Shown piece by piece: positions 8,582-24,391 of a stretch of 26,474 nt of DNA. The translations under genes and the position numbers were made by a program. Under the pieces are notes generated by a model. That model was not told where the DNA came from. It ran no database searches and saw only the letters and a program-made list of their open reading frames with translations. Position 1 is the stretch's first letter. Each line of letters starts with the position of its first letter. The stretch comes from a virus: IMG/VR virus record IMGVR_UViG_3300032242_001662, positions 1-26,474 of that record. The stretch is one strand, 5' to 3'.

Positions 8582-8622
8582 AAAAAGAAAAACTGTGCAT
8601 AGAGTTAACTATACACAGTTTT
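8582..8622 (-). terminator. Rho-independent terminator between the late block and gp32
   Basis: The minus strand forms a 14-bp stem (8609-8622 with 8589-8602, one G-T pair) with a six-base loop, followed by TTTTTCTTTTT. The plus strand also has T-rich sequence after the stem, so it may work in both directions. It follows the 766-residue gene by 38 bases. Confidence 0.85.
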
Positions 8623-8660
8623 ATTTATCATCGCAAGTGTTAACCTGCTATATTATGAAT

Positions 8661-10961
8661 TTATTTTGCCAAACCTGCTAGTTTCAAAATGTCTGCCATT
8701 TCAGGAACAATTTCTTTGGGATTACCGGTTTTATCCATTACATCGCCATAGCCTAGATCTAAACGTGCCTTGTGGTTTTCGATTCGACGCTCTAACTCTT
8801 TCATTTTGACTTCATCGTGATTTGCCTGTGCTTGTTGGTAAAATTGAGTCAATTTTTGTAGTTGTGGACTTGCTTCGTATGCTTGATTGGCCATATGATT
8901 ATTAACACCCCACATGGCCGCAATCAATGCCGCACCGCCTAATAGCTTACTACCAAATCCTTCGTCTGTTTCTTCTTGTCCTAGTCCTTCAACTTTAGCC
9001 TTGACGTTGCCTAGTAGTTCTCTTAGTCTATCAACAGATAAGCCATCGTCACCGCTGATGGACTTACCGTGACGCTCTGACCATTCATTGGTAAGTTTTT
9101 CCATAAATTTACTTGCCAATTCTTCAGCTTGATGTCCAGCCTGTTCTCCAAACTTCTCACTGATTTTTTTCTTAATATCAAGAGCGATATTTTCTTGACC
9201 ACGGAATGGACCAACTTCTGGATTGTCACGATTGTAAAAACTCTTAACAATCTTGGCAACTTCTTTGACCATAGACTTAGGATCTTTCTCTTCCATTGTG
9301 CCCGGAGGTGCTTCCATATCTTGATTTTCAAAAGCTGGCATGATGCCGTGTACTGTTGCTACTCCTGCACCACTGCTGGTTTCAGCAGTAGGTTGTTCTG
9401 CACCTACTTCTTGTGGCGGTGCTTCTGGTTGAGCAGTATCGCTAATACCTAATGTCACTGCTAGCTCTGGATAGTCTTCGTTAGCCCATTTTTTAAAAGC
9501 ATCAAAGGCATTTGAAGTAGAATCTAATTCTGCGGCGGCCTTTAACTTATCTTCTAAATCAGTATCTTCAATTCCTAACTCGCTAAAGAATTGCCAGGCT
9601 GTTTGTCCTTGATCGCCTAGTTGTAATTCTGGCTCGCCCTGACCACTAGCTGGTAATTGAGCCAATGCCTGTTTTAATCCTGTAATTTGATCATCTGTTA
9701 ATTTGCCTTGTTCAATAGCTTCTGCCCATTCTGCAAACTCTGTTTCCGGAGAACGTTGTGTCACCGGTTGGCCATCTCTTATATTTCCAACATCGGCGAT
9801 CGAATATTGTACTACGCTTCCACCGTTGTGATTAGCTTGTTCTGCTTCTTGTGGGCTGTTAAATGGGCCGTCAGTTGGCTCCTTGCTGAATCTATCGACG
9901 ACATAATATCCCATTCCTCCATCTAGACTTTCTTGGACATAGTCTTCTAGTTCTATAGAATTTTCTTCGCTCATAATACTATGCAACAAGGGGAAATATC
10001 CTGTTAATTCTTCTTGGAATGAACTCTGTGTAAATTTTTGTTTGTACTGTTCCATCGTGACAGCATCAAGCTCCATGACGCTGTCAGTCGGGTGTTCTTG
10101 TTCGTTGAATTCCATCACCCAATTTTCATAATGATGACGTTTTCCTAGTGTTTCGATTCTTGCCTTAAGTTCGTTAAGACGGCCTACGGCCCTTTCTGTT
10201 ATGCCCATTGCGTCATCGTGCAAACTTGTTCGTTGTATTTTTCTTTGAAATTCTTGTAGTTGAGCAATGTTTTCGCTCATTTTAATAATTGCCTTACCTG
10301 CCGCATCGTGAGGAACACCACCGTGATCCACGTGCTGTGCCATAGCAAACGCACCTGCTGGATGAATGAAAGGATATTTGAATCTTTCACCATCTTGATT
10401 TTGAATAAAGATTGCCTTGATATTTTTACGTTGTGAACGACTGCCTGCGTATTCTTCGTCTACTGGGCGGGCGTGACGAACAATAACTTCTGTGCGGCCC
10501 TGAACAGCTCTACTAGTTTTCTTTGAGCTTTTATTATTCCATCTAGATTCGTTCATTGTATTCATTTCTGGTTCTTCCTTAGGGCCCTGTGTTGCGGCCA
10601 AATGTTGAAAATCATTTTTGTCAAGATTTGTTTTAGCAATATCACGAGTGTCAAAACGTAGTAGCCTACGCATAGCGAAGAAACGCATTTCTTTTAAGAA
10701 ACTGTACCACTCTTTCTTCGCAGGATCGTCTTGATTTTCAGTAATACCTTGACTATAGTAAACTTTTAAACTGCCCAAATCGTTTAAGCTGATGCTTACT
10801 CGTCCAAGATTGTTGCCTTCGATAACAAAATCAAAATCGAAGAAACGTGCTTCTGCAGGGTCAATAGTGACTGCGCCAGTTTCGTCCCCCATCTCTAGGT
10901 TGCTGAAACGGCTGCGTACTTTGTCGAATACATCTTGGCTGATTATTTGGATAGGTTTCAT
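8661..10961 (-). CDS. Large late phage protein of unknown function, 766 aa
   Basis: I recognise the sequence type as one recurring in marine T4-like phages but cannot assign a function. The N-terminal domain (1-120) has RFFDFDFVIEGNNLGRVSIS and an aromatic/basic helix (EWYSFLKEMRFFAMRRLLRF). Residues 155-215 form a second conserved-looking block with IVRHARPVDEE and GERFKYPFIHPAGAFAMAQH. The middle (360-560) is Gln/Glu/Pro-rich and probably extended. Near 664-685 an EETDEG motif leads into a short hydrophobic Gly/Ala segment (LLGGAALIAAMWGV), followed by a coiled-coil-like helix. The end is MADILKLAGLAK. It is driven by a late promoter directly at its ATG and closed by a terminator. A virion, internal or injected protein is plausible. 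No homology to a named T4 protein is claimed. Confidence 0.8.
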   Translation of the reverse strand: MKPIQIISQDVFDKVRSRFSNLEMGDETGAVTIDPAEARFFDFDFVIEGNNLGRVSISLNDLGSLKVYYSQGITENQDDPAKKEWYSFLKEMRFFAMRRLLRFDTRDIAKTNLDKNDFQHLAATQGPKEEPEMNTMNESRWNNKSSKKTSRAVQGRTEVIVRHARPVDEEYAGSRSQRKNIKAIFIQNQDGERFKYPFIHPAGAFAMAQHVDHGGVPHDAAGKAIIKMSENIAQLQEFQRKIQRTSLHDDAMGITERAVGRLNELKARIETLGKRHHYENWVMEFNEQEHPTDSVMELDAVTMEQYKQKFTQSSFQEELTGYFPLLHSIMSEENSIELEDYVQESLDGGMGYYVVDRFSKEPTDGPFNSPQEAEQANHNGGSVVQYSIADVGNIRDGQPVTQRSPETEFAEWAEAIEQGKLTDDQITGLKQALAQLPASGQGEPELQLGDQGQTAWQFFSELGIEDTDLEDKLKAAAELDSTSNAFDAFKKWANEDYPELAVTLGISDTAQPEAPPQEVGAEQPTAETSSGAGVATVHGIMPAFENQDMEAPPGTMEEKDPKSMVKEVAKIVKSFYNRDNPEVGPFRGQENIALDIKKKISEKFGEQAGHQAEELASKFMEKLTNEWSERHGKSISGDDGLSVDRLRELLGNVKAKVEGLGQEETDEGFGSKLLGGAALIAAMWGVNNHMANQAYEASPQLQKLTQFYQQAQANHDEVKMKELERRIENHKARLDLGYGDVMDKTGNPKEIVPEMADILKLAGLAK

Positions 10962-10967
10962 ATGTGT

Positions 10968-10975
10968 TATTTATG
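10968..10975 (-). promoter_or_regulatory. T4-type late promoter of the 766-aa gene
   Basis: The box CATAAATA on the minus strand is followed by only six bases (ACACAT) before the ATG at 10961. It overlaps the TAA stop of the preceding gene. With T4 geometry transcription starts one base before the ATG. There is no ribosome site. Confidence 0.75.
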
Positions 10976-11744
10976 CAGAAAGCACTTTGACTAGTTTTTC
11001 GGGTAACACTTGTGATTCTAAATATTTTTGATATGTTTGCCTAATTGCCGAGGTGATTGGCATACCTGTAGCTGTTGATAATATTTCTAGCACTTTTTCA
11101 GGATTTTCAGTTATATCAGAAAATTCGATACTGTGTACTCTATCTTTATATTCATCAGACACGCACTCTAAAAAATCAGTCCATTTCAAATATCGATAAG
11201 GAGTACGTGCATCTTCTATAGGTACTTTCAGCATGAATCTTTGGGGGAATCGACAAAATCCCATATTAGATTTTTCTATATATTCTTCTAATCTTTTTTT
11301 AAGTTCAGCAGTATCTAAATAATCTATGTTCTTTAAATATTGATCTTTCGGTGGATGCCCGAAAGATTGTACATCTGCTAGACTAAAAGAATGTTTTTTG
11401 TACAGTACATTACAGAGTATTCGTAATCTATCTTCTGGTTTGAATGTTATAAAAAATCCTCGGACAGATTTAAAATCTATCATATTACAATAATAAGGAC
11501 TTCTAATCGTTAGATATTTTGCACTAGTTTTTGCTGTTACTGATCGAAGATGCATATTATCAGGATCGTTTTCAGTAAAATTATTATTCTGATAATTTGA
11601 GTATGCTCGATGTACAGACCCCATCGGATCTATAATGGATGGATCAGTTTGCTGACTTAAAAATAAATTTAGCAGAATTGATATGAAGGATCCCATAGAT
11701 CCTTCTTCGTAATCTACAAAATATAAATCAATATCAGTATTCAT
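10971..11744 (-). CDS. Possible sulfotransferase-like P-loop protein
   Basis: This 257-residue protein is not confidently recognised. Two features resemble phage sulfotransferase-type proteins. One is an N-terminal strand-loop-helix FVDYEEGSMGSFISILLNLF (residues 9-28), which could be a phosphosulfate-binding loop. The other is a C-terminal block with IEFSDITENPEKVLEILSTA and then RQTYQKYLESQ, like the 'F-x-D-x3-ENP-x-x-VL ... Y-x-x-YL' ending of sulfotransferases. A canonical PKSGTTW loop is absent. The ATG overlaps the gp17 stop (TAATG) and there is no ribosome site, so translation is coupled to the terminase. The A/T content is higher than in gp17. It may be a late-acquired accessory gene. 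Confidence 0.55.
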   Translation of the reverse strand: MNTDIDLYFVDYEEGSMGSFISILLNLFLSQQTDPSIIDPMGSVHRAYSNYQNNNFTENDPDNMHLRSVTAKTSAKYLTIRSPYYCNMIDFKSVRGFFITFKPEDRLRILCNVLYKKHSFSLADVQSFGHPPKDQYLKNIDYLDTAELKKRLEEYIEKSNMGFCRFPQRFMLKVPIEDARTPYRYLKWTDFLECVSDEYKDRVHSIEFSDITENPEKVLEILSTATGMPITSAIRQTYQKYLESQVLPEKLVKVLSA

Positions 11745-13324
11745 TAGTAAGAGCTAATATAGATAGGCAAGGGCATTTCCCACTCTCCCTCTACCTCTTC
11801 TCTCATCTTGTCGTATATTGCAGGATCCCATTCTTGTAATACTAATGCCATACGTAAAGCTAGTAATACACTGCTAACTAGGTCGTCGTGGCTACCTGTT
11901 TTACCGGCAAAACTAATACCCTTGGCTACGAACGTTTTTAATTCTGAAATCAACGATTTAGAATTAATTTTCATTCTGTTGCTTTCTATTAGATGTTTTA
12001 ATTTAGCACAGGTAGCAATTTTACTAGTATGTGTAGTATTAAATCCTTTGCGGAATCTACGAACGTGTCCTTTTTTAATCGGCTCACTTAAAAATAATCC
12101 CGGAATACTCTCTTCACCAATTTCATCTATGGATATCAAGGCAGCTTCACCTACGTTATTATTTTCTACAGAATAGTAGAGACTTAGTTGAGAACCTCTA
12201 GCCGTACATTCTGCACTGATGTAATTACAGATATCTCTTAAAATCCTAACCTGTCCCTGTATAGGAGTTAGATTATGATGCCACTCACCTACTTGATCAA
12301 ACGTTGGCAATTCTAAAATCTGTATGGCCGCGGGATCACCACCGGTGCCTAGACTAGGATCTAATGCGACTAGATAGGTCTTCTTGGGATCAATTTTTTT
12401 GTACCAGCGACACTGTCCCATTTTAACAATAGGTTCTCGACCTTCTAATCCGGCTAGCTTGATTGAACTGATTAGTGTTTCATCAAATACCAAGAATTCA
12501 CAATCGTGTTCACGACGGAATCGTTCTTCACCAATTCGCGACCTTTCTACGTTGGCCCACTCTTCATCTCGTTCTGGGTGCTCTGACCAATGTGCTCTAA
12601 ACGGAAAGAATCCATTCTTACCTACATCTGTGCTATTACCATACTCGTCGGTTCTTTTATTTGATTCCATCCAGATCTGAGCAAACTGATCTTCGTCTGA
12701 GTTTGGAGTAGATGTAATAATGGCCTTACCACCAGTTGCTAGTGTAGGGCTAATAGATGTCCAGAATTCTGACGCTATGTTAGGTGCAACGAATGCAAAC
12801 TCGTCGGCGTATAGTAATGATAATGACATACCACGACCTGTTGTTTCAGTGGTGGTCTGCGCAACAATACGAGAACCATTGTCAAATTCTAAACTTTGTT
12901 TATTATAACTAGTAGCACCGCAACGTATATGATCAGGACATAATTCATACGCATATCGAATACGGTTCATAATTTCCTGGGCACCCGTATACTTGTGCGC
13001 GGCAATTAGAATAGTGCTGTCAGGAACAAACATAGCATACCACAACAAATACCCGGCTGCTGTAGTTGTCTTACCTGTTTGGCGAGGCAGTAGGTTTACG
13101 TTAAATCTGTGATTGTGATAACTGTCAATTAACCTTTTCTGATATTCAAAAGGTTCGTATAATAGCTTTCCTTTAACCGGATGCTGAATATGAAAGAAGT
13201 GCTCAAGAAAATAGTGCGGTCCATTGATCGGATCCATACACCCCTGTAGGTCTTCAATATCCTGCTCAGTAAACTTTTGTGTAGTGTGAGCTGTCTTGAT
13301 CAGCTTGTCTTGTTTGTTTGCCAT
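11744..13324 (-). CDS. 17: Terminase large subunit gp17
   Basis: gp17 is the DNA packaging motor: an N-terminal ATPase and a C-terminal RNase H-fold nuclease that cuts the concatemer. In 526 residues, Walker A is RQTGKTT at 81-87 (Lys85) and Walker B LLYADEF at 170-176 (Asp174, catalytic Glu175). The coupling motif TSTPN is at 204-208. The nuclease acids are Asp322 in LDPSLG, Glu387 in VENNN and Asp480 in SHDD. T4 gp17 is 610 residues. The ATG at 13324 is preceded by a late promoter five bases away and no Shine-Dalgarno site, and a terminator lies just before that promoter. gp16 lies two genes upstream instead of adjacent as in T4. Confidence 0.96.
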   Translation of the reverse strand: MANKQDKLIKTAHTTQKFTEQDIEDLQGCMDPINGPHYFLEHFFHIQHPVKGKLLYEPFEYQKRLIDSYHNHRFNVNLLPRQTGKTTTAAGYLLWYAMFVPDSTILIAAHKYTGAQEIMNRIRYAYELCPDHIRCGATSYNKQSLEFDNGSRIVAQTTTETTGRGMSLSLLYADEFAFVAPNIASEFWTSISPTLATGGKAIITSTPNSDEDQFAQIWMESNKRTDEYGNSTDVGKNGFFPFRAHWSEHPERDEEWANVERSRIGEERFRREHDCEFLVFDETLISSIKLAGLEGREPIVKMGQCRWYKKIDPKKTYLVALDPSLGTGGDPAAIQILELPTFDQVGEWHHNLTPIQGQVRILRDICNYISAECTARGSQLSLYYSVENNNVGEAALISIDEIGEESIPGLFLSEPIKKGHVRRFRKGFNTTHTSKIATCAKLKHLIESNRMKINSKSLISELKTFVAKGISFAGKTGSHDDLVSSVLLALRMALVLQEWDPAIYDKMREEVEGEWEMPLPIYISSY

Positions 13325-13329
13325 AATAT

Positions 13330-13337
13330 TATTTACT
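13330..13337 (-). promoter_or_regulatory. T4-type late promoter of gene 17
   Basis: AGTAAATA on the minus strand is followed by five bases (ATATT) and the ATG at 13324. T4 geometry puts transcription start on the A of the ATG. It sits directly after the terminator of the preceding gene. Confidence 0.7.
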
Positions 13338-13338
13338 G

Positions 13339-13364
13339 AAAAAAATAGCCTCCGAAGAGGCTAT
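13339..13364 (-). terminator. Rho-independent terminator before gene 17
   Basis: The minus strand has a perfect 8-bp stem ATAGCCTC/GAGGCTAT around a TTCG tetraloop, followed by six T. It lies 16 bases after the stop of the 345-residue gene. Confidence 0.92.
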
Positions 13365-13380
13365 ATGGATTTGAATTAGA

Positions 13381-14418
13381 TTAAGCATCTATCATGATGT
13401 CGTCTTCATCGCTTTTTGTAAGTTTGACTTTGCCCTGTAGTTCTGGTTTATTTTTAAGGATTGCTAGGGCATAGTTATTAGCACCTTTTTTCCAATCGAA
13501 TACTTTAATTTCGCCCTTACTTCTAAGAATCTTTCCGTTAATCTTTATATACCAAGGACCGCGATCGTGGTCTCGTTGCGCTCTTTGCCATTCTGGATCA
13601 TCTTCGTGTCCTAGTTCATGCTGTAATTCAGCACGTTTAAATGCCTGTTTCGCATAATCTATTTGATCCTGCTCACGCTTTTGCCAGCCTGGCATATTAC
13701 TATCCCAGCTACTGCGACCGTAGGCTTCACTTACTTTTTTTTTTGAATCAGACTCGGCTACAAAATTTCTATATTCGGCCATTAAATTTTCGTAAGTAGC
13801 TGTTGGTAAATTGCTTTGACGCTTTTCTCCGTTGCTTGCTTCACCTGCACCTGGATTGTTTTCGTGATGTGCGAATTCTTCAGAATCAAATGAAGGAGCA
13901 TTGCGAGGATCATTAGGTGTGTTGTCGTACTGACCTTCGTCAGTTTCTTCTTCCATTGCGCCGCCAATACCACCGCCGATTGCTGCGCCAACTGGTCCGC
14001 CTAGCATTGCACCACCGACTGCACCTAATGCACCACCTATTGCACCCTCGTCGGCTTCTTCATCTCCGCCTGCATCGTGCATTTTGTCAATTACACTACG
14101 CATTTCGTCGCCTGCACTAGGAGCTGGTCCTACTGATACTACTGGTTCAGCTGTGATCATTGCTGGTTCGTGGTCAACACCTAAATGCTCAGGTTCGACT
14201 TTACTCATACCAGCTAGGCTCATAATCTTAGCCAACATATCGCCAAGTTCTTCTCCACTGCCTGCTGTCATATTGATGCTAGCAGGAGTGCTAGGACGGT
14301 CCATGCTACTCATCATTCCCATTGGGCCGCATTCAGCTACTTCAGAAGATTCTTTAATAACATTTGGATTGGTAGCATCTAGCTCTGCCAAACGCTTTAG
14401 TACGTCGATCATTTGCAT
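13381..14418 (-). CDS. Late phage protein with glycine-zipper segment, 345 aa, function unknown
   Basis: I recall this type of protein from marine T4-like phages without an assigned function. Residues 1-75 contain VLKRLAELDATNPNV, CGPMGMM and a block ending MLAKIMSLAGMSK. Residues 124-155 are a long Gly/Ala zipper (repeats of G-G-A-x-x-G) flanked on both sides by DEG motifs (EEADEG, EEETDEG). This could insert in membranes or pack helices. Around 212-223 lies AEYRNFVAES, resembling a capsid-targeting/protease-site peptide. The C-terminal 60 residues (GPWYIKINGKILRSKGEIKV) look like a small beta domain. The ATG has AAGGA seven bases upstream, overlapping the previous stop. A terminator follows. 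A capsid-internal or ejected protein is possible, as inference. Confidence 0.75.
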   Translation of the reverse strand: MQMIDVLKRLAELDATNPNVIKESSEVAECGPMGMMSSMDRPSTPASINMTAGSGEELGDMLAKIMSLAGMSKVEPEHLGVDHEPAMITAEPVVSVGPAPSAGDEMRSVIDKMHDAGGDEEADEGAIGGALGAVGGAMLGGPVGAAIGGGIGGAMEEETDEGQYDNTPNDPRNAPSFDSEEFAHHENNPGAGEASNGEKRQSNLPTATYENLMAEYRNFVAESDSKKKVSEAYGRSSWDSNMPGWQKREQDQIDYAKQAFKRAELQHELGHEDDPEWQRAQRDHDRGPWYIKINGKILRSKGEIKVFDWKKGANNYALAILKNKPELQGKVKLTKSDEDDIMIDA

Positions 14419-14420
14419 AA

Positions 14421-15011
14421 TTATTTCCTTAGGTCTTGTGCCTGAAACTTAAGAAGGCTTGCTTGCTTATCTTCTTTGTCAGTGTTAAATTTAGCGGCAG
14501 CTTCCATAGGAATTTCTTCTCCGCGTGCCTTGCGTTGTAGTTTTAAAATGTCGTTTAGTTCTTTAACGAATCCGGTGTTATACTTGTCACCGTAGAAATC
14601 TTCAAATTGTGCATTTGGAGATTCTGAGTAATTTGGATCATCTAACAGGGCTCCTTCGCGAGGCTCTGTGATTGTTTGATATTCTTCACTAGGCTCGCCA
14701 GGGCGACGAACTACTAGATGTTGTTTGCTGACTCCTAGCTCTGAACTTAGGTATTCTGTCAGTTCTTGTTGTGTAGTAGGGTAATCTAAACTAACTTCGT
14801 AGATATTAACTTCACAGTTTTTAACCTGAGGAAAATCTAGCGGAAGTGCTTGGATAGGAGTTACGCCTGCTTTTTTAAATCCAGAAATCGCGAACTTACC
14901 TAAACAAGTTTGCATATATCCTTCTTGTTCAGCGGTGAATTCGCCAGCGACCTTAACTCTAAAGTCGTATTGTTTTACGGATTCCGAAAGGTATTCTTTA
15001 AAAGTTTTCAT
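14421..15011 (-). CDS. Candidate capsid-targeted internal protein, 196 aa
   Basis: The first 11 residues, MKTFKEYLSES, closely match the capsid targeting sequence of T4 internal proteins IPII and IPIII (MKTYQEFIAEA). LSE-S fits the [L/I]-x-E cleavage rule of the gp21 prohead protease. The rest is a mixed alpha/beta protein with a possible ferredoxin-like fold in 15-110 (FRVKVAGEFTAEQEG, NCEVNIYEVSLDYPTT, HLVVRRPGE). After that comes an acidic linker and a helical C-terminus. I do not recognise a named family. The gene is driven by a late promoter five bases before the ATG, embedded in the last codons of gp16. It lies between the two terminase subunits, among late genes. Confidence 0.75.
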   Translation of the reverse strand: MKTFKEYLSESVKQYDFRVKVAGEFTAEQEGYMQTCLGKFAISGFKKAGVTPIQALPLDFPQVKNCEVNIYEVSLDYPTTQQELTEYLSSELGVSKQHLVVRRPGEPSEEYQTITEPREGALLDDPNYSESPNAQFEDFYGDKYNTGFVKELNDILKLQRKARGEEIPMEAAAKFNTDKEDKQASLLKFQAQDLRK

Positions 15012-15015
15012 AGTA

Positions 15016-15495
15016 TTATTTATTCAAATTCTTTAGTTTTTCGAGGATGCTATTACGGTCAGTGAGTATATAACCTTCACCTTCTACTGTAGATCCTTCA
15101 GAATTTCCATTTTTACGATCAATTGCTAACTTCTTAAGCTGTAGATCAACCATCTTAAGTTTCTTGTCAATCTTGTTAGTTTTAGCAGTAATAGCGGCAT
15201 TCATCATTTGTGCCGCAACTTCAAACATACGAGCACCGTGGCGTGCTTCTACATTCATACCTAGGTCCATTAGATCATCGTAGGCTTGTTCTGCTTTTGA
15301 AGCTAGGGCATCTAATTCTGCATCGCTAATATCTCCTAGTCCTTTTACACGAGGCAAGGCAGCGGCGATTTTGTCAAATTCTTCTAGTTTTTCTTCTAGA
15401 TTAATAGTTGCTACTGGGATAGGTGCAGTAGCAGGATCAGGTATGATCTCTTCTACTGGTTCTAGGTTTAGCAATTCTTCAAGTTTTTTGGTCAT
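15016..15495 (-). CDS. 16: Terminase small subunit gp16
   Basis: gp16 recognises viral DNA and regulates gp17 in packaging. This 159-residue protein is helical, with a Pro/Glu-rich N-terminus and a core containing DALASKAEQAYDDLMDLGMN, then VEARHGARMFEVAAQMMNAA and TAKTNKIDKKLKMVDLQLKK. The last two segments make a long coiled-coil hairpin as in T4 gp16 (164 residues). The 'DLMDLGMNVE' block is the hallmark I recognise from marine T4-like small terminases. It has its own late promoter candidate with a leader of about 25 bases and no clear Shine-Dalgarno site. The last codons carry the promoter of the next gene. Confidence 0.85.
   Translation of the reverse strand: MTKKLEELLNLEPVEEIIPDPATAPIPVATINLEEKLEEFDKIAAALPRVKGLGDISDAELDALASKAEQAYDDLMDLGMNVEARHGARMFEVAAQMMNAAITAKTNKIDKKLKMVDLQLKKLAIDRKNGNSEGSTVEGEGYILTDRNSILEKLKNLNK
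15017..15024 (-). promoter_or_regulatory. T4-type late promoter of the 196-aa gene
   Basis: AATAAATA on the minus strand overlaps the AAT-AAA-TAA end of gene 16, with five bases (ATACT) to the ATG at 15011. The predicted start is the A of the ATG. There is no ribosome site. Confidence 0.75.
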
Positions 15496-15525
15496 ATATT
15501 ATCCAGAGGTCAATTTGTATAAGTT

Positions 15526-15533
15526 TATTTAAA
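15526..15533 (-). promoter_or_regulatory. Candidate T4-type late promoter of gene 16
   Basis: TTTAAATA on the minus strand lies in the 73-base gap before gene 16. Transcription would start about 25 bases before the ATG at 15495. Confidence 0.5.
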
Positions 15534-15568
15534 GATAAATTAAAACTTTTGACTATTTTTGGTGTGAT

Positions 15569-16368: not shown

Positions 16369-17502
16369 TTATCTTCCAGTTATTTTAGATGCTTGGGCAG
16401 GAGTAGTGTTGTTTACACTGCTGTTTGGATATAGATTAATTCCGTTATTGCCTTGAGATCCATTGCCGCCGCCAGTTATAGGTTGAGAAAGACCTGCACC
16501 AATTGCACCACCTAATGCTCCTGCGGCGATGCTATATCCTTCTTGGAGAACTCCGGCCTTTGAAAGTTTTCCTACATTTTGTATTAATGTTTTTGTCTGC
16601 AGAGCAACACCTAAGAAATCTAAAGGACTTGACGCTGTGGCCAGTAATCCGTCCTCGCCAAAAATAGTATTAGCACCGTCGAGTACACCACCAGCACCAA
16701 ACAAGTTTCCACTGCCACCGATACCTAACGGACTTGGAGTAGTATCGTAATAGACAGGGGCAAATCCTACAGGACTGCGTCCTCTGATGATCTTTCCTTT
16801 TTTGTAAACTACTGATTCATAGGCAAGAGTCATTTTGTTTGACATTATTTTGCCACCTTCATCTTGATTAAGACTATCGTGAGCCCAATCAACAATTATA
16901 GGATTTATTAGTGTTATCTGTGTAAAGTCTGCAATACCTTTACCTTTGTGCATAACATAGATATCTATACTGTCAAAGAATGGTACGGTTTGAAAATTGT
17001 CAATACCATAGGCATAATTTGTCACTCCATACTTGGTATCACTGTATTGTTGCGTTTTTACTTTCTTAGATACCTCACCATAGACACTGTCCATATAGTA
17101 GTATTGGTAATAGTTTTTCCACAGATCATTAGTGATGTCGCTGTTATCATCGTGGAATTCGATGTTGATATTGTTGTAATTTAATTTTGTCTGTACTACA
17201 GTTTTTCTATTGTATTGGTTTAAAACTTCTGTGCCGATATTAAATTTAGGAAGGTCTGTTCTTTTAACTAATAGTCCTACATCTGGGCGACCTTTTTCTA
17301 ACCAACGTTTATCAATAACTGCCTGTTGATTTATATTAAAATTAACAAAATATAAAAACCCTACCTTAGGAGCACGGGCATAGTTATTTTTTACGTATAA
17401 TCGATCAGCGTGTTGATAATCTTTCATACTGGCGTTACCAGCATCATCGCCAAAGATGCCGCCGACTACACCGCCTAAGAAATTGGTAAAAGCATTACTC
17501 AT
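16369..17502 (-). CDS. Tail-tube-fold baseplate protein (gp48/gp54-like), 377 aa
   Basis: The core (about 45-245) reads like a tail-tube-fold protein: GFLYFVNFNINQQAV, LLVKRTDLPKFNIGTEVLNQ, YNRKTVVQTKLNYNNINIEF, HDDNSDITNDLWKNYYQYYY and later ITLINPIIVDWAHDSLNQDE. This alternation is the pattern of tube, tube-initiator (gp54) and tube-cap (gp48) proteins. Because gp19 is the next gene upstream, a gp54 or gp48 role at the baseplate-tube junction is likely. The two cannot be told apart by eye. The N-terminus (FLGGVVGGIFG) and C-terminus (GALGGAIGAGLSQ) are Gly-rich. A late promoter lies five bases before the ATG, with no ribosome site. T4 gp54 and gp48 are 320 and 364 residues. Confidence 0.65.
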   Translation of the reverse strand: MSNAFTNFLGGVVGGIFGDDAGNASMKDYQHADRLYVKNNYARAPKVGFLYFVNFNINQQAVIDKRWLEKGRPDVGLLVKRTDLPKFNIGTEVLNQYNRKTVVQTKLNYNNINIEFHDDNSDITNDLWKNYYQYYYMDSVYGEVSKKVKTQQYSDTKYGVTNYAYGIDNFQTVPFFDSIDIYVMHKGKGIADFTQITLINPIIVDWAHDSLNQDEGGKIMSNKMTLAYESVVYKKGKIIRGRSPVGFAPVYYDTTPSPLGIGGSGNLFGAGGVLDGANTIFGEDGLLATASSPLDFLGVALQTKTLIQNVGKLSKAGVLQEGYSIAAGALGGAIGAGLSQPITGGGNGSQGNNGINLYPNSSVNNTTPAQASKITGR

Positions 17503-17507
17503 AATGA

Positions 17508-17515
17508 TATTTATG
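17508..17515 (-). promoter_or_regulatory. T4-type late promoter of the tube-like baseplate gene
   Basis: CATAAATA on the minus strand is followed by five bases (TCATT) and the ATG at 17502. T4 geometry starts transcription on the ATG itself. It directly follows the gp19 terminator. Confidence 0.78.
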
Positions 17516-17520
17516 CCAAT

Positions 17521-17548
17521 AAAAAAGCCTGGTTTTTAACCCAGGCTT
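17521..17548 (-). terminator. Rho-independent terminator after gene 19
   Basis: The minus strand has the 8-bp stem AAGCCTGG/CCAGGCTT with an eight-base loop and a T run, 17 bases after the gp19 stop. Confidence 0.88.
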
Positions 17549-17565
17549 ATTTAAGTTAGTGGGGA

Positions 17566-18198
17566 TTAACCACCAATTGCTAATGAACGTACTGTACGTC
17601 CAACTGCCGCTCCAAGACCAGTAGGATTACCAGCCGTGTCAACTTGTAGTGCGTTATCATATGTGATAGACAATGCAATATCCATTGGATCATTGTTTGT
17701 GTAATCGCCACCTTGATATGTTGCTTGTTTAATAAAACAACCGTGATATTCAAATGCTTCCAATACTGCCGGTTCATAAGCGCCATTGCCGCCGTCTAAG
17801 ATTTCGACACGCATCAAGAATTTGTAATCAATACCAGAAGCCGCACCTGACTGCTCAAAGAAGTCAAATTGTTTCTGCATCTGTTCGCCGACCTTTTTAG
17901 TGACTGCGTTTGTAACATCATCACGTAGGGTTAATGTAGCATCTGCAAAACTGTGACGTCCTGCTAGTTTAACAGTACTGTTATAAACACTTAGTTTGAT
18001 TTCTTCAAAACTAACTTGCGGACGAGTAACGTTCATAACTTGTTTTGTTAATTCTGTTGACGGAGTACCTGCAACACCGAATCCGTCTAATGTAACACGG
18101 AAACGATATCTTAGTTTAGGCATCAACAAACCTTGAGTGTTAGCACTCTGGTCTGTGTTTAGCGGTACTGTAAATCTGTTTAAACTTGAAATTGGCAT
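17566..18198 (-). CDS. 19: Tail tube protein gp19
   Basis: gp19 polymerises into the inner tube of the contractile tail. This protein has 210 residues (T4 gp19 163). It begins with SSLNRFTVPLN and has the core blocks PKLRYRFRVTLDGFG, LTKQVMNVTRPQVSFEEIKL, KLAGRHSFADATLTLRDDV and VLEAFEYHGCFIKQATYQ, with NDPMDIALSITYDNA near the end. This is the layout of gp19 in marine T4-like phages. The ATG at 18198 has AAGGAG seven bases upstream. The gap to the sheath gene is 23 bases with no terminator, so it is co-transcribed with gp18. A strong terminator follows. Confidence 0.92.
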   Translation of the reverse strand: MPISSLNRFTVPLNTDQSANTQGLLMPKLRYRFRVTLDGFGVAGTPSTELTKQVMNVTRPQVSFEEIKLSVYNSTVKLAGRHSFADATLTLRDDVTNAVTKKVGEQMQKQFDFFEQSGAASGIDYKFLMRVEILDGGNGAYEPAVLEAFEYHGCFIKQATYQGGDYTNNDPMDIALSITYDNALQVDTAGNPTGLGAAVGRTVRSLAIGG

Positions 18199-18221
18199 TT
18201 AAATGCTCCTTGTTCTATAAA

Positions 18222-21200
18222 TTATTTTGTTGATCCAGGAAAGCCAGCACCTAAGTTGCCACTAGCAATCGCACCTGTGTTCAATATACGCAATGGAATA
18301 TAAATGAATTCCACTGCCTTAACCGGTTCAACTGCGATATCTAACCATAGCTCGCTACGGTCAATTCTAGCCGGTGTGTTGTTACTAGTATCACAAACAA
18401 CAATAAAGTCATATAGTGCTCGTTGCCCTACTAATTCGATTAGTAGGCTTTCAGCAGCCGCTTTAATTTCTCTACGTGTTTGAGCATCGTTAGGTTCAAA
18501 CAAGAATGGTTTAGCTAAGATAGATAGTTGTCTACGTAGATATGCAATCAAACGTGCTACGTTAATTCTATCCAATGCGCTAGCACCGTTAGAACGAGTG
18601 TACTGTCCAAAGTTAACAATACCAACCCCTGGCAATGTTGCGATTGGATTGATCTTAACATCGTGCATAACGTTGCGTAGGCCTTCATACAATGCTGTAG
18701 TCTTAAACTCGCCAGTAGCGCCATCGATGTAACCTACTGAAGTAGCATTGTCGACTGTACCGCGGCGTGTACCTGCTGGAGCAAACCATTGGTAGCTCTT
18801 AGCATCGCTGTTAACGATTGTGCGCAACATCATATGGCTTGGAGGAACAACAATGTTCTTACCTGCGTTGTCTGTTGTATAACCACTTGGGTAGAACATA
18901 GCTGTGTATGGGTCATATGTAACAGCGCCTGCATCACCGTTATCGTATGCGTTGGCGGTGTTTGCACCCCAGTTATTCAGGTCAGTAGCATTTGGCTTTA
19001 AACGGAATGGTGTATCACCGACAACAAACGCTGTCTGCCCACGATCTGTGTTTAAGTTAACCATATTGGCAATAGCTTCTGTATATCCAGGAGTTGCAAT
19101 TAGGTTGAACACCAATGTATCTGTATCACGAACTGCTGTGCTTGTATCGATCAATGATTTAATCTTTGATACAACATAACCGCGCTGTGCTAGGCGTCCA
19201 AATGATCCAGAACCATCTTCGTGGTTTGGACTTACTGTAACCCAACGATCGCTAGTATATGTAGACATATCGTCATTTTGATACATTATGTTTTTGCCGT
19301 TGTTAGCAGTCTTGTTGATATAACCAGAAACATATTTCTTGATGTTAAATCCTGAACGGCGCAGATTCCATAGGCGTGTTCCTTTTGGATACAATGCTGG
19401 ATCAATACAATCTGGATCTACATAGTTGCTGATTAATAAATCGTCAATTGTAGTTACATATTCCATATTGTCGGAACCATTGTCGCTCCAACGTGCATCG
19501 TGGAATACCCAGCCGTTAGGGCTAGTGTGATCGGCTACATTTTGTTGTACCCATTGTAGGAGACTTCCGTCCCAAACATAAACGTCTTTACCGTAGGCAT
19601 CTGGATTTGCAGTGTTGACCCAAATGTCGCCATCTGCAAGAGCTGTTACACCGTCGACCTGTGTAGTAGGTTTTGTAGCACCAATGATCGGACCCTTAGG
19701 ATCTGTATGGTTTACACCATTTGTTAGACCGCCTAGGAAACTATCATAGTGTCTGTAGCCTACCCACTTGTGACCATCATTGATCATGATGTCTACATCG
19801 TGTAGGTTAGCATCATACCATAATGTTCCATCTGCTGGTAAGCTATATGGAGCAGTGCCGCTAGCAGTATAAGCCAGTGGTTTCCAGTTTGTAGCAATGA
19901 AAGTGTAATGATCACCTGCCGGTGCTGTGTATAGATTTGCAGTACCAGTCTTGGCAGTTACATTATATGCTGAAAAACCTGCACTAGTGACAATGTGAGT
20001 AGTGCCATCATCTTTAATTTCAAAATCACCGCCTAGTGCGTGAGTCAATGTAACTCTATGTGTATCGGCATCATAACTAGCTGAAACATTAACTAGTCCT
20101 GATGTGTTAATAGCAGTGGCCAACTGTGCGCCAACTGTGGCAGTCGAAGATCCAACTACTGCGATTGTTGCGCTAGTTGCATAAGTTGAGCTAGAAGCCA
20201 GTGTTTCTCTGATATAGATTGTGCTGTTGCTGGTCTGTGTTGCAGTAGATGCTACGCTAACAATGCTAGTTGGGCTTGTAGCGTTTCTGCGCCATACACG
20301 GAATTCAGCAGTAGCGTTGCCACCGTTGATACCATAGTGGTCAGGATCTGATTCAACAAACAATGTGCCTGTTGGAATGTTCTTACCACCACCAACAGCA
20401 TCTAGCTTGTTGATAGCCTGTACTGAACTTTCATATATCGGAGCACTTACTGTTCCCCAGGTTTGTGTAGCACCGCTGTAATATTTTACAGCCCAGTTTG
20501 CGCCGTAGCCAGGGCTAGTTGTTTTAACCCAAACACTGCCATTTACAGTTGCGGTGGTAAATGCTGGAACTTTTGTGTGAGGACTAATTTGCACCAATTT
20601 AGAACTATCAAATCCTGTTTCAACAGCTACCCAAGCATTAGTGGCTGCGGTCGTTTTATAGAACAATGCATTTGGATTAGTTGCACCATTATCTGATGTG
20701 ATATAGATAGCATAGTCGCCCTGCTTACCAAATGAGTCTTTTGGAACACCACCGGTTGACACACTGGCTACATTGTCATCATTGATTACTAGTGGAGTCT
20801 TGGCAGTAAACGAACCTCTGCCACTTGAACTCCATTCTTCGATACCATATAAAGAAGTTGTTGTATCAACCCAGAACTTACCGCTAGCTGGTACACCTTT
20901 AGGAATATCAGTTGTAGCTTTTAGCGCACCTAGGTCAACATCAGCACGGGCAACATATGCACGTGAACTGACGCCTAATAAGCTGTATGCGGCTTGCAGT
21001 CCGTATTCGTTTAATTCTCCACCGTGTACAGGATTACTGTTGCTGTCGGTATAGAATGTTGGGGTACCAAATGTATCTGTTAGATCTCGTTGACTTGTAA
21101 TGATCCAAACTTTACCAGCGTTAGCGGCAGTAGTGCCTTGCGCTGTTCCAGTACCGGAAGCATTCTTTTTGTCTTGTGCTGTTGCAACAAATATCAGTGG

Positions 21201-21281
21201 TGTGGTCGATGGGGCAGCGGGAGTGTAAAAACTCTCGTCAATTACGCTAACCGAAACGCCTGGTGAACCTAGTGTAGCCAT
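18222..21281 (-). CDS. 18: Tail sheath protein gp18, expanded (1019 aa)
   Basis: gp18 forms the contractile sheath. The N-terminus (MATLGSPGVSVSVIDESFYT) and the C-terminal 400 residues (GYINKTANNGKNI, NTDRGQTAFVVGD, YDPYTAMFYPSGYTT, VVPPSHMMLRTIVNSD, WFAPAGTRRG, GVGIVNFGQYT, the YLRRQLSILAKPFLFEPND polymerisation domain) are sheath-like. The protein is about 360 residues longer than T4 gp18 (659). The excess lies between about 120 and 600 and contains at least six divergent modules: 134-150, 188-219, 248-276, 305-330, 485-509 and 551-578. They share G-x-[LIV]-[WF]-V/Y ... W-x-G-x-x-W. I chose the ATG at 21281 because AAGGAG lies seven bases before it. A TTG two codons earlier is unlikely. 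Confidence 0.93.
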   Translation of the reverse strand: MATLGSPGVSVSVIDESFYTPAAPSTTPLIFVATAQDKKNASGTGTAQGTTAANAGKVWIITSQRDLTDTFGTPTFYTDSNSNPVHGGELNEYGLQAAYSLLGVSSRAYVARADVDLGALKATTDIPKGVPASGKFWVDTTTSLYGIEEWSSSGRGSFTAKTPLVINDDNVASVSTGGVPKDSFGKQGDYAIYITSDNGATNPNALFYKTTAATNAWVAVETGFDSSKLVQISPHTKVPAFTTATVNGSVWVKTTSPGYGANWAVKYYSGATQTWGTVSAPIYESSVQAINKLDAVGGGKNIPTGTLFVESDPDHYGINGGNATAEFRVWRRNATSPTSIVSVASTATQTSNSTIYIRETLASSSTYATSATIAVVGSSTATVGAQLATAINTSGLVNVSASYDADTHRVTLTHALGGDFEIKDDGTTHIVTSAGFSAYNVTAKTGTANLYTAPAGDHYTFIATNWKPLAYTASGTAPYSLPADGTLWYDANLHDVDIMINDGHKWVGYRHYDSFLGGLTNGVNHTDPKGPIIGATKPTTQVDGVTALADGDIWVNTANPDAYGKDVYVWDGSLLQWVQQNVADHTSPNGWVFHDARWSDNGSDNMEYVTTIDDLLISNYVDPDCIDPALYPKGTRLWNLRRSGFNIKKYVSGYINKTANNGKNIMYQNDDMSTYTSDRWVTVSPNHEDGSGSFGRLAQRGYVVSKIKSLIDTSTAVRDTDTLVFNLIATPGYTEAIANMVNLNTDRGQTAFVVGDTPFRLKPNATDLNNWGANTANAYDNGDAGAVTYDPYTAMFYPSGYTTDNAGKNIVVPPSHMMLRTIVNSDAKSYQWFAPAGTRRGTVDNATSVGYIDGATGEFKTTALYEGLRNVMHDVKINPIATLPGVGIVNFGQYTRSNGASALDRINVARLIAYLRRQLSILAKPFLFEPNDAQTRREIKAAAESLLIELVGQRALYDFIVVCDTSNNTPARIDRSELWLDIAVEPVKAVEFIYIPLRILNTGAIASGNLGAGFPGSTK

Positions 21282-21288
21282 TATCAAT

Positions 21289-21294
21289 CTCCTT
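21289..21294 (-). promoter_or_regulatory. Ribosome binding site deciding the gene 18 start
   Basis: AAGGAG on the minus strand lies seven bases before the ATG at 21281, which fixes the start at MATLGSPG. Confidence 0.85.
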
Positions 21295-21311
21295 GGTGGA
21301 TTACTTTGTTT

Positions 21312-21319
21312 TATTTAGC
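21312..21319 (-). promoter_or_regulatory. T4-type late promoter of gene 18
   Basis: GCTAAATA on the minus strand would start transcription near 21306. This gives a leader of about 25 bases that contains the AAGGAG site, unlike the leaderless late genes of this window. Confidence 0.7.
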
Positions 21320-21340
21320 CAGTAAACTGAAAAAATAGTG

Positions 21341-21348
21341 GTTAAATA
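21341..21348 (+). promoter_or_regulatory. Candidate late promoter of the HNH gene
   Basis: GTTAAATA on the plus strand would start transcription near 21354 and leave a 26-base leader with a weak GGGCGG before the ATG at 21380. It is divergent from the gene 18 box 21 bases away. Confidence 0.4.
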
Positions 21349-21379
21349 CAAGTAGAAAAGGGCACAAAAAGGGCGGTCA

Positions 21380-21715
21380 ATGAGAAAACTCTGTAAAACT
21401 TGTGGTCAACGACCTAGGGCAATCAACTACTACAAAGAAGGTGTGCCTTTCTATAGGTCAAAATGCGACCACTGTGCTAGGGGTAGTCAAAAAGAAAGGC
21501 CCCTTTGGGCCTTAGCTGGATATAAGAAAAAAAATGTCTGTGATCGATGTAATTTTAAATCACCGCATCAGGAATCTTTTAATGTGTTCCACGTTGACGG
21601 TGATTTAACCAATTGTCGTTTTACTAATCTCAAGACAGTCTGTGCCAACTGTCAACGAGTACTACACAAGGAAGGCGTTAAGTGGAAGCAAGGCGATCTT
21701 GTACCAGATTTTTAA
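21380..21715 (+). CDS. HNH-type / zinc-ribbon endonuclease-like protein, 111 aa
   Basis: This small protein has two zinc-binding modules. The first has Cys5-x2-Cys8 and Cys29-x2-Cys32. The second has CDRC and CANC around FHVDGDLTNCRFTNLK, an HNH-like core (His-Val-Asp-Gly, then Asn). The overall layout, including WALAGYKKK and QGDLVPDF at the end, matches a stand-alone HNH protein I recall from marine T4-like phages. Such proteins may nick DNA, but activity cannot be seen. It is the only plus-strand gene in the leftward block, divergent from gp18. Its last 38 bases overlap the end of the dNMP kinase gene, tail to tail. A zinc-ribbon DNA-binding regulator is the alternative. Confidence 0.8.
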   Translation: MRKLCKTCGQRPRAINYYKEGVPFYRSKCDHCARGSQKERPLWALAGYKKKNVCDRCNFKSPHQESFNVFHVDGDLTNCRFTNLKTVCANCQRVLHKEGVKWKQGDLVPDF

Positions 21716-22325
21716 CCTGTTTAAATAGGTCATCTATACTACCGTCATTGCTGAGGATATAATCAAACTCGGTACCAACCCAGGCGGTTTCACTAGCGTG
21801 AATATTTAATCTCTCTAATCTAGATCTACTAGTAGCCCAAGACATATTTCGATCACCCTCGTTAAAGTTAACAGCATCTTCATACCATTCAGGCTCCGGG
21901 CCTCGCACTACTCTAACAACAATACCGCCTGCATCCCATATTGATTTAATCTCATTAGGGAACCGGCAGTCGCTGATAACGATATCATCTCGGCTATTAC
22001 GAAGTTTATTTTCTAGTGCGGCAATCCAGATATCATTGTGGAATGCCTTGCGGCATACTTCTGTGCCCCAATACTGTAGTACCCACCGCGGAGTAAGATT
22101 GGGCATATTTAAACGCTCTGCCCACCAAGGATCTACCTGTTCGCGCCATTCACGGGCCTGTTTAGTGCGGCCTTCTAACATTGTACGGTCCCAACCAAAG
22201 ACCTGTGCTACAGCATCTTTGAGTGAATTGGCAAAAGATTCTCGCCTAAAACCGTGGAAATTTGTAAGATAATCGGCAATAGTATCCTTGCCCGAACCAA
22301 TAAAACCGCATACACCTATAATCAT
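21678..22325 (-). CDS. 1: Deoxynucleoside monophosphate kinase (gp1-like)
   Basis: This enzyme phosphorylates dNMPs to dNDPs for phage DNA synthesis. The 215-residue P-loop kinase has Walker A GFIGSGKDT (7-15), the helix ADYLTNFHGF, the segment ESFANSLKDAVAQVFGW, then LTPRWVLQYWGTEVCRK, DIVISDCRFPNEIK and VVRVVRGPEPEWY. The SDCRFPNE motif and the lid Arg residues match the T4 gp1/phage dNMP kinase family (T4 gp1 241 residues). It sits among late genes but has its own sigma70-type promoter and AGGGAGG site, so early expression is likely. The 3' end overlaps the HNH gene. A hairpin spans the start codon (see 22325-22346). Confidence 0.9.
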   Translation of the reverse strand: MIIGVCGFIGSGKDTIADYLTNFHGFRRESFANSLKDAVAQVFGWDRTMLEGRTKQAREWREQVDPWWAERLNMPNLTPRWVLQYWGTEVCRKAFHNDIWIAALENKLRNSRDDIVISDCRFPNEIKSIWDAGGIVVRVVRGPEPEWYEDAVNFNEGDRNMSWATSRSRLERLNIHASETAWVGTEFDYILSNDGSIDDLFKQVKNLVQDRLAST

Positions 22326-22346
22326 AGCGCCTCCCTATATGCGCTA
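22325..22346 (-). promoter_or_regulatory. Hairpin over the dNMP kinase ribosome site and start
   Basis: On the minus strand a perfect 6-bp inverted repeat, TAGCGC (22341-22346) and GCGCTA (22325-22330), encloses a ten-base loop holding most of the AGGGAGG site. The 3' arm includes the A of the ATG. Transcripts from the nearby sigma70-type promoter would begin inside or after the 5' arm and so could not form it. Confidence 0.5.
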
Positions 22347-22374
22347 GTTTATAACAGTTTTATTAAAATGTCAA
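22346..22374 (-). promoter_or_regulatory. Sigma70-type early promoter of the dNMP kinase gene
   Basis: A perfect -35 TTGACA (22369-22374) on the minus strand is followed by TATAAA (22348-22353, spacing 15) or TAAACT (22346-22351, spacing 17). The predicted start is near 22339-22341, giving a leader of about 14-16 bases that contains AGGGAGG. Confidence 0.75.
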
Positions 22375-22380
22375 GATTTT

Positions 22381-23139
22381 TTAGCCAATTACGAAAGTAA
22401 GTGGAGTACCGCCATCTTTGTAATTGATTAGATCTGCTTCTAAGATTTCGATCTCGGCCTTGCCTTCTGCTTTGAGTGCGGCACCATTTAATTGTGTTCC
22501 GCCTTGTGCGCTGGGGATTGTAGCAAACTTTTCACGAGCTTCACCTAGCATAATTTTAGCAGTGGCCAGGCTGTAGTCGCGCAACCATTGGCTGGCAAAA
22601 GGATCTTGTAGTAGATTGAAGTCTGGACGATAGTTATACATCCATAACAGTACTTCTTCCGAACCTCTTGGACGTTGCATAATGTTCAGCACCTTGGTAG
22701 TTTTATTAAATGTAAAATTAATATCACTACCAAACATCTTACCTACCTGTTTCTGATATGACGCAAAAGCATAGTAGGTAGCCAAGCCGCCCATATTTGT
22801 CGATGTGAGCAAGTATGTGTTAGAGTAGGCCAAGTTGAACGGTTCAAATAAGCTACCACCATCACCGCCGCCTGATCTAGAACCGATGCTTCTGCGGAAT
22901 ATCTGGCGTACAGATGTGACTTCTTTAGGCAGTTGATAATCGTTTTGATCAGTTAACAGAGTTAAAAATCCAAAACTTTCTTCTGAAGCATTGCTACTGC
23001 GCTGGCGGAATTTGTTCAGGGCGCGATCAATTGCTGTGTTGTAATGCACAGGATCGAGCTCAACGTCGACCATACCTGCACCCAACATGGTCTGCACATA
23101 TTCGACAACTTTTTGGCGTTCGTTTTCGGTTTCAGTCAT
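22381..23139 (-). CDS. 13: Neck protein, probably gp13
   Basis: gp13 and gp14 form the neck that closes the filled head. This 252-residue protein has the pattern VVEYVQTMLGAGMVDVELDP, then ALNKFRQRSSNASEES, YQLPKEVTSVRQIFRRSIGS, a Gly-rich loop, KMFGSDINFTFNKTTKVLNI and WMYNYRPDF. It ends with AEIEILEADLINY. This is the layout of the connector/neck protein annotated as gp13 in marine T4-like phages, and its divergent neighbour is clearly gp14-like. T4 gp13 is 309 residues and very divergent, so the number is an inference from family and position. A late promoter lies five bases before the ATG. There is no ribosome site. Confidence 0.65.
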   Translation of the reverse strand: MTETENERQKVVEYVQTMLGAGMVDVELDPVHYNTAIDRALNKFRQRSSNASEESFGFLTLLTDQNDYQLPKEVTSVRQIFRRSIGSRSGGGDGGSLFEPFNLAYSNTYLLTSTNMGGLATYYAFASYQKQVGKMFGSDINFTFNKTTKVLNIMQRPRGSEEVLLWMYNYRPDFNLLQDPFASQWLRDYSLATAKIMLGEAREKFATIPSAQGGTQLNGAALKAEGKAEIEILEADLINYKDGGTPLTFVIG

Positions 23140-23144
23140 AACAA

Positions 23145-23152
23145 TATTTAGC
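23145..23152 (-). promoter_or_regulatory. T4-type late promoter of the gp13-like gene
   Basis: GCTAAATA on the minus strand is followed by five bases (TTGTT) and the ATG at 23139. It abuts the plus-strand late box at 23153 with no base between. Confidence 0.78.
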
Positions 23153-23160
23153 TATAAATA
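23153..23160 (+). promoter_or_regulatory. Consensus T4 late promoter of the gp14-gp15 operon
   Basis: TATAAATA is the exact T4 late consensus, followed by seven bases (CATTACT) and the ATG at 23168. T4 geometry gives a two-base leader. There is no ribosome site. Confidence 0.88.
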
Positions 23161-23167
23161 CATTACT

Positions 23168-24391
23168 ATGCCAAGACTATCTCTTTATAAACCAGAAAAA
23201 GGTGCCGATTTTAAATTCCTCGATCGTTTGATTAATGAGCAATTTCAAGTCGGTGGCACCGATGTGTTTGTACACAAATACCTAGGACCTGTTGACCCAG
23301 CAGAGGGCGATGCTTCTCCTAGTAAACCTGTTAACACAAACCCTATACCAGAATTAGGAATACAAGATCTTATATTCATGGAGAACAGAGATAGACACTA
23401 CGATCCCGATGTTTATGTGATCAGAGGCATTTATACTATGCAAGACTTAGATTTTAACCTAAGTCAATTCGGTATGTTTTTAAGCAATGACAACATCTTA
23501 ATTACATTCCATCTAAGACATAATGTTGATACATTGGGCCGTAAAATTATGCCTGGTGATGTGATCGAACTTCCTCACTTAAAAGATGAGTACGCTTTAG
23601 ATGATAGTCTTGTTGCATTGAAAAGATTTTATGTTGTACAGGATGTAAGTCGTCCTGCAAGTGGTTATAGTCCTACTTGGTACCCGCACCTTGTACGTGC
23701 TAAGTGTGTACCGTTAGTAGACAGCCAAGAATTTAGCGAAATCCTTAACGCCGATAGTGGTGCAGGAGACGGCAGTACTTTACGAGATTTGATCAGTACC
23801 TATCAGAAGAGCATTGACATCAACAATCAAATTATTGAGCAGGCCGATGCCGATGTGCCTACTAGCGGATTCAATACGAAAAATTTGTATGTATTGCCTA
23901 TCAGTACCAGTACAGGATTGATCAATGTAGCCGATGCATCCACTGCCGGATCATTAAATGCGATCGGAGACGCTGGTATTACGCAGGCCATGTTGGATGC
24001 CAGTGTTGTCTTAGAAACTCCTACACAGAACGTTTATGTGGGATACTTAACCGGGGATGGAAAACCACCTAACGGTGCTCCATACGGATTTGGTATTAAT
24101 TTTCCAACTAACCCGGTCACCGGACAATACTATCTAAGAACAGATTATTTGCCAAATAGATTGTTTAGATACGATGGTAATCTATGGGTCAAATATGAAG
24201 ACAATGTTCGTATGACACTAAACAACTTCGGTAGTCAAGACGTTGCTAGTGGAACATTCGCTGGAAAAGCTGTAAGACAAACACAGAAGACCAGTTTCAT
24301 CAACAATACCAATACATCCACTATCGCAGGACAGGTAGTAGTAGAACGTCAGGCATTGAGCAAAGTGTTAAAACCAAAGGCGGATAATTAA
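23168..24391 (+). CDS. 14: Neck protein gp14, C-terminally extended (407 aa)
   Basis: gp14 is the second neck component. Residues 1-195 carry the family pattern: MPRLSLYKPEKGADFKFLDR, VGGTDVFVHKYLGP, IQDLIFMENRDRHYDPDVY, LDFNLSQFGMFLSND, LGRKIMPGDVIELPHLKDEY and PTWYPHLVRAKC, ending PLVDSQEFSEIL. The rest (about 200-407) is longer than in T4 gp14 (256). It contains a tryptophan module GQYYLRTDYLPNRLFRYDGN (319-338) followed by LWVKYED. I chose the ATG at 23168 because the exact late promoter sits directly before it. An in-frame extension upstream would run across the promoter and into the divergent gene. Confidence 0.88.
   Translation: MPRLSLYKPEKGADFKFLDRLINEQFQVGGTDVFVHKYLGPVDPAEGDASPSKPVNTNPIPELGIQDLIFMENRDRHYDPDVYVIRGIYTMQDLDFNLSQFGMFLSNDNILITFHLRHNVDTLGRKIMPGDVIELPHLKDEYALDDSLVALKRFYVVQDVSRPASGYSPTWYPHLVRAKCVPLVDSQEFSEILNADSGAGDGSTLRDLISTYQKSIDINNQIIEQADADVPTSGFNTKNLYVLPISTSTGLINVADASTAGSLNAIGDAGITQAMLDASVVLETPTQNVYVGYLTGDGKPPNGAPYGFGINFPTNPVTGQYYLRTDYLPNRLFRYDGNLWVKYEDNVRMTLNNFGSQDVASGTFAGKAVRQTQKTSFINNTNTSTIAGQVVVERQALSKVLKPKADN

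Follow-up and report, generated by a model that had tools for sequence, protein, structure and literature searches.

Late promoters fused to start codons predict leaderless late mRNAs in a clade of uncultured T4-superfamily phages

The IMG/VR virus record IMGVR_UViG_3300032242_001662, which we analysed whole (26,474 bases, 28 genes; referred to here as the window), carries six genes in which the hexamer TAAATA lies only 5–7 nucleotides (nt) before the ATG and no Shine-Dalgarno (SD) site is present. We consider it very probable that these boxes are T4-type late promoters that start transcription at the A of the ATG, or not more than about 3 nt from it, and that the late mRNAs made from them would be leaderless. 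The evidence consists of sequence features, from which we infer the actual 5' ends and the translation that would begin at them. An earlier note on this DNA had pointed to the six genes, and its description of the boxes, spacers and start codons proved exact in every case.

Most of the six genes are on the minus strand. The box at 10968..10973 (−) is separated by the spacer ACACAT (6 nt) from the ATG at 10961 of a 766-aa gene (8661..10961, −; virion structural family phrog_13484, E=2.6e-9), which is predicted to be leaderless with a leader of 0–1 nt; its N-terminal codons are under purifying selection and a box 4–7 nt before the ATG was found in 75 sequences of its orthologues. The box at 13330..13335 (−; spacer ATATT, 5 nt) leads to the ATG at 13324 of gp17, the large terminase subunit (TerL; 11744..13324, −; phrog_36964, E=8.6e-120), also predicted leaderless, and 60 of 76 gp17 orthologues have the box 4–7 nt before the ATG, with exactly 5 nt in 49. 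The same prediction holds for a 196-aa gene (14421..15011, −; its match to virion structural phrog_14802 is weak, E=0.0068), with its box at 15017..15022 (−; spacer ATACT, 5 nt; ATG at 15011; family F3, 29 contigs), and for a tail tube-like gene (16369..17502, −; phrog_4542, E=7.6e-10), with its box at 17508..17513 (−; spacer TCATT, 5 nt; ATG at 17502; family F2, 45 contigs, 5 nt in 42). Finally, two boxes lie back to back: the one at 23145..23150 (−; spacer TTGTT, 5 nt) precedes the ATG at 23139 of gp13, the head-tail adaptor Ad2 (22381..23139, −; phrog_211, E=5e-33), predicted leaderless, and the one at 23155..23160 (+; spacer CATTACT, 7 nt) precedes the ATG at 23168 of a divergent virion structural gene (23168..24391, +; phrog_11591, E=4.1e-83), for which a leader of 0–3 nt is predicted. 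The gp13 box is found in 77 of 79 contigs (5 nt from the ATG in 75 and 6 nt in 2). The names gp13, gp17 and tube given in the earlier note hold in PHROGs, but the gene that it called gp14 matches phrog_11591 and not gp14.

The window contains no excess of TAAATA (22 found, 32 expected), so what is unusual is the placement of the hexamer and not its abundance: 6 of the 22 sit 5–7 nt before a gene ATG, where chance predicts about 0.035 such genes (22 boxes, 28 genes, three spacings; P about 1e-12). Because the genomes are A/T-rich and TAAATA is common, it could be argued that the arrangement is fortuitous, or that miscalled starts make boxes seem near ATGs. We give this practically no credence. 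A conservative Poisson test yields P = 3e-6 in the window and similar values in several relatives, permuted hexamers show no comparable peak except those overlapping the box, and chance is already refuted by conservation across contigs. Regarding the start codons, an alternative in-frame start upstream, or a better one nearby with an SD site, is lacking in five of the six genes. Furthermore, relatives in each of the six families differ mainly at third positions over the first 20 codons, which indicates protein-level selection just after the ATG and therefore translation beginning at or before it. In the Pelagibacter phage HTVC008M, which has the same arrangement (see below), the starts are those of the public annotation where checked.

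The window has no close match among phage isolates and no near-identical phage record, and it belongs to a large clade of uncultured phages. We found 80 IMG/VR contigs, some of them long (322, 151, 139 and 119 kb), with a TerL 63–86% identical to that of the window, and the sampled members form a single supported group in the TerL tree separate from all isolates (support 95/96). The nearest isolates by TerL are the jumbo phages PA5oct (56% identity), Phosso, Atu_ph07 and GAP32/PBECO4 (56–42% for the whole set). When eight clade sequences were scanned de novo for hexamers enriched at a constant distance upstream of candidate ATGs, the top positioned motif was TAAATA at d=5 (48 seen, 4.1 expected; d is the number of nt between the box and the start codon), which outranks the SD hexamers; the same scan of HTVC008M gave 11 seen and 0.47 expected. 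Starts at d=4–7 number 6 in the window, 18 in the 322-kb contig (G008), 12, 11, 10 and 9 in four others (G004, G006, G010 and G002, respectively) and 12 in HTVC008M. The genes with a fused box in the clade include TerL, gp13, the tube-like gene, gp25 and virion structural families. Other genes with a fused promoter were observed at loci of three of these contigs and in L062 (G008, G006, G004, L062), namely host-like genes, which encode a peptide deformylase, an Fe superoxide dismutase, an AlgH-like protein and a cytidylyltransferase that has a mannose-6-phosphate isomerase domain.

The pattern is different elsewhere in the superfamily. T4 (225 boxes), GAP32 and S-PM2 have no start at d=4–7, Syn9 has one and PA5oct two (611 boxes), so that none of these five phages shows an excess there; their boxes lie 15–45 nt upstream, usually with an SD site, this classical arrangement accounting for 35 boxes in T4 and 69 in GAP32. 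Moreover, the orthologous genes of PA5oct, GAP32, PBECO4, Atu_ph07 and Phosso have either a box 20–55 nt upstream together with an SD site or no box. The earlier note had asked for a scan of related phages for a sharp peak at 5–6 bases without SD sites, and this peak is strong in the clade and appears again in a second, separate lineage. Its idea of a systematic late-gene strategy thus stands for particular T4-superfamily lineages, but not for T4-like phages generally: a trait of all of them is rejected by T4, Syn9, S-PM2, P-SSM2, GAP32 and PA5oct, and its absence from T4, Syn9, S-PM2, GAP32 and PA5oct makes the fusion a derived trait.

Several features place the predicted transcription start on the AUG. 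The T4 late box comprises 8 bp numbered −13 to −6 (PMC2988020), and as it ends at −6, +1 coincides with the A of the ATG when the spacer is 5 nt long. Two sets of leadered late promoters, one from the clade (n=89) and one from T4, GAP32 and the cyanophages (n=90), agree with this numbering and give internal evidence for such a start: at the 6th base after the box, A is enriched and the pyrimidine-purine step reaches its highest frequency. The clade box itself has the TAAATA core with the flank (A/G)(A) and not TA. A pyrimidine directly precedes the ATG in 93–96% of the fused genes (96% of 163 distinct d=5 genes), compared with 50–53% in other classes, and an SD-like site was found in only 3% of the d=4–7 genes (n=76), versus 66% of those with the box at d=17–45 (n=131) and 51% of the others. 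The start codons at d=4–7 in the long clade sequences are almost exclusively ATG (76, versus 2 GTG/TTG). In one contig (L384) where gp13 has lost the close box, AAAGGAG is present instead.

A fixed distance to the start codon, in the place of the SD site, would also be expected if TAAATA-N5-ATG were a translation-initiation element, an A/T-rich substitute for the SD, and not a promoter. We regard this as very improbable, since the same box with similar flanks occurs 17–45 nt upstream, together with a separate SD site, in the same genomes, and in those leadered promoters the initiator follows the box by 6 nt instead of coinciding with the ATG. In addition, the box equals the core of the T4 late box and the phages encode a gp55 sigma factor, and the boxes follow terminators and occur in back-to-back pairs, as promoters do. 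The gp55-like late sigma (phrog_12791) was found in 6 of the 10 long clade contigs tested (G002, G004, G006, G008, G010 and G013; E from 1e-79 to 1e-87); the four contigs without a match are fragments, and the window, also a fragment, carries none.

Some observations weigh against a start exactly on the AUG or against its generality. Genes with d=4, 6 or 7 require a start shifted by a base or a leader of 1–3 nt and, as d=7 genes have an A at −3 in 91%, a 3-nt leader is suggested for them. Contig G013 alone does not reach significance, and an exact box is missing from this position in 16 of the 76 gp17 orthologues, several of which carry TAAGTA at the same spacing. This variant was seen 5–7 nt upstream of gp17 in L066, L072, L073, L075, L081 and L086, so the clade box may be TAARTA in some members.

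The fused genes also have no room for leaders. An intrinsic terminator, ATAGCCTC-TTCG-GAGGCTAT followed by a T tract (13339..13364, −), stops about 3 nt short of the gp17 box. Covariation supports its helix in 30 orthologues, where 99.3% of cells are paired and 6 of the 9 pairs show compensatory changes (0 of 500 shuffles). Another one, GCCTGG...CCAGGC-TTTTTT (17521..17546, −), lies 7 nt before the box of the tube-like gene, in whose orthologues a terminator abuts the box in 64% (0.2% in controls). As for gp13 and its divergent neighbour, both boxes are present in 63 of 66 contigs, with 24–51 bp from ATG to ATG, mostly 24–29 (28 bp in the window). Two further TAAATA hexamers (8622–8627, −, and 17548–17553, −) stand directly before terminator hairpins and resemble not promoters but the A-tract half of a bidirectional terminator.

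These features bear on another explanation: the boxes would act as promoters, yet most translation of the genes would come from longer read-in transcripts begun upstream, and the leaderless RNAs would be a minor or non-productive species. T4-type late transcription frequently reads through, the genes are packed, and the box of the 196-aa gene overlaps the stop codon of the preceding gene, all of which would favour read-in. It is nevertheless quite improbable in our judgement: covarying intrinsic terminators separate the upstream gene from the box at gp17 and at the tube-like gene, the neighbour of gp13 is divergent and not a co-directional upstream gene, and a long transcript would be poorly used because the fused starts lack an SD site.

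Leaderless late transcription could then operate as follows. The gp55-family sigma would recognise TAAATA as a −10-like box at about −11 to −6, and late in infection the phage-modified RNA polymerase would make mRNAs beginning with AUG, on which ribosomes would have to initiate without a leader or an SD site. Most of the fused genes are capsid, neck, tail and packaging genes heading transcription units, and the downstream genes of the same units, like other late promoters of the genome such as that of gp18, keep their SD sites. In the window, SD sites (AAGGA/GGAGG) are present, as the earlier note had listed, at the 96-aa gene, UvsX, gp32, gp19, gp18 and the 345-aa gene, and also at the cupin gene if it begins at an internal ATG. 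The note's proposal that promoter-proximal late genes are translated leaderless has to be narrowed to some late promoters, because leadered late promoters with SD sites coexist in the same genomes; gp18 itself has a TAAATA box (21312..21317, −) 30 nt before its ATG at 21281, with the SD site AAGGAG at 21289–21294. A small HNH-like gene of the window (21380–21715, +) has a leadered box as well, and in 13 contigs the box of its relatives stands 4–5 nt before the ATG (family F5), so a gene can switch between both arrangements.

The second lineage is that of the pelagimyophages. HTVC008M has 11 genes at exactly d=5, among them those for the tape measure, gp2, gp4, gp54, gp25, gp3 and CsgF, and its gp2 and gp4 are divergent with 26 bp between their ATGs. 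In 60 HTVC008M-related contigs we found 46 distinct genes at d=5, and exactly this spacing is present in six genes of Mosig and three of Melnitz, compared with none to one in the cyanophages Syn9, S-PM2 and P-SSM2. As HTVC008M is placed on a branch of the TerL tree separate from the window clade, the fused architecture needs at least two changes on this tree. In a survey of pelagimyophages, late-promoter prediction was unsuccessful in the group (PMC7029224), possibly because the promoters abut the genes.

It is conceivable, although we think it unlikely, that leaderless mRNAs were adopted independently by the two lineages for much of their late regulon, providing a switch in translation late in infection, in which phage-altered ribosomes (carrying, for example, bS21) would favour 5'-AUG mRNAs over the SD mRNAs of the host. 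Initiation factor IF3 disfavours leaderless mRNA. Among the leadered relatives, Phosso, Atu_ph07, GAP32 and PBECO4 encode it; no copy was found in PA5oct or in the contigs of the leaderless clade, the 322-kb one among them. bS21 is present in HTVC008M, Mosig, Melnitz and G008, and also in PA5oct, Atu_ph07 and Phosso. Neither factor was retained as the cause of the leaderless state, as there is no clean correlation. G008 further contains a permuted tmRNA candidate (L090:5244-5616, −) with the tag AANDDAYLMAA, a cluster of ten tRNAs (L103) and one tRNA in L093.

Regarding the hosts of the clade, a TerL search of bacterial genomes gave no match, and a gp13 search found relatives (60–61% identity, with the same boxes; L438-L440) only in two marine bins of metagenome-assembled genomes, 'Rickettsiales' MED657 and 'Pelagibacter'. 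This is a weak hint at marine alphaproteobacterial hosts, since such bins can contain stray phage contigs.

T4 late transcription is a textbook system that is always drawn with leaders and SD sites, and the genes described here would represent a derived version in which the start position of the sigma factor doubles as the start codon. The fusion allows the starts of transcription and of genes, and the operon maps, to be predicted for many uncultured phages directly from their genomes, and a cultured phage, HTVC008M, is already available for testing the prediction. Furthermore, because the genes include those for the terminase, neck, tail tube-like and other virion proteins, they would offer a natural test of the protein output of leaderless mRNAs, the translation of which reportedly resists kasugamycin (PMC5230787).

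The open library that was the scope of our search (subscription papers, including any on the Syn9 or PA5oct transcriptomes, were outside it) yielded no paper with a description of leaderless late genes in T4-like phages. The promoters of the clade share with the T4 late promoters, which have the sequence TATAAATA and depend on gp55, gp33 and gp45 (PMC2988020, PMC7892883), the box core, the virion and packaging genes, a gp55-family sigma (in relatives of the window) and the initiator signature at the 6th base. However, the T4 boxes are located about 15–45 nt upstream, generally with SD sites and none at 4–7 nt, whereas a large part of those described in this work abut the ATG. A TATAAATA-like motif has been reported before structural genes of CBB and GAP32 (PMC5259590); CBB/GAP32 and PA5oct are among the closest isolated relatives, and their orthologues have a box 20–55 nt upstream with SD sites or are boxless. 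The pelagimyophages HTVC008M and Mosig have the fused box at d=5 in common with the window clade and differ in their branch of the TerL tree. With the leaderless mRNAs of bacteria and archaea, such as those of mycobacteria (PMC3898074, PMC4633059), the clade shares the predicted AUG 5' end, the absence of SD sites, the almost exclusive use of AUG and a −10-like element about 6 nt before the start; the difference is that those of the clade, as predicted from sequence, would form the late regulon of a phage, served by a sigma factor of its own. A systematic leaderless late-gene strategy in T4-superfamily phages would therefore be a new combination of two known elements.

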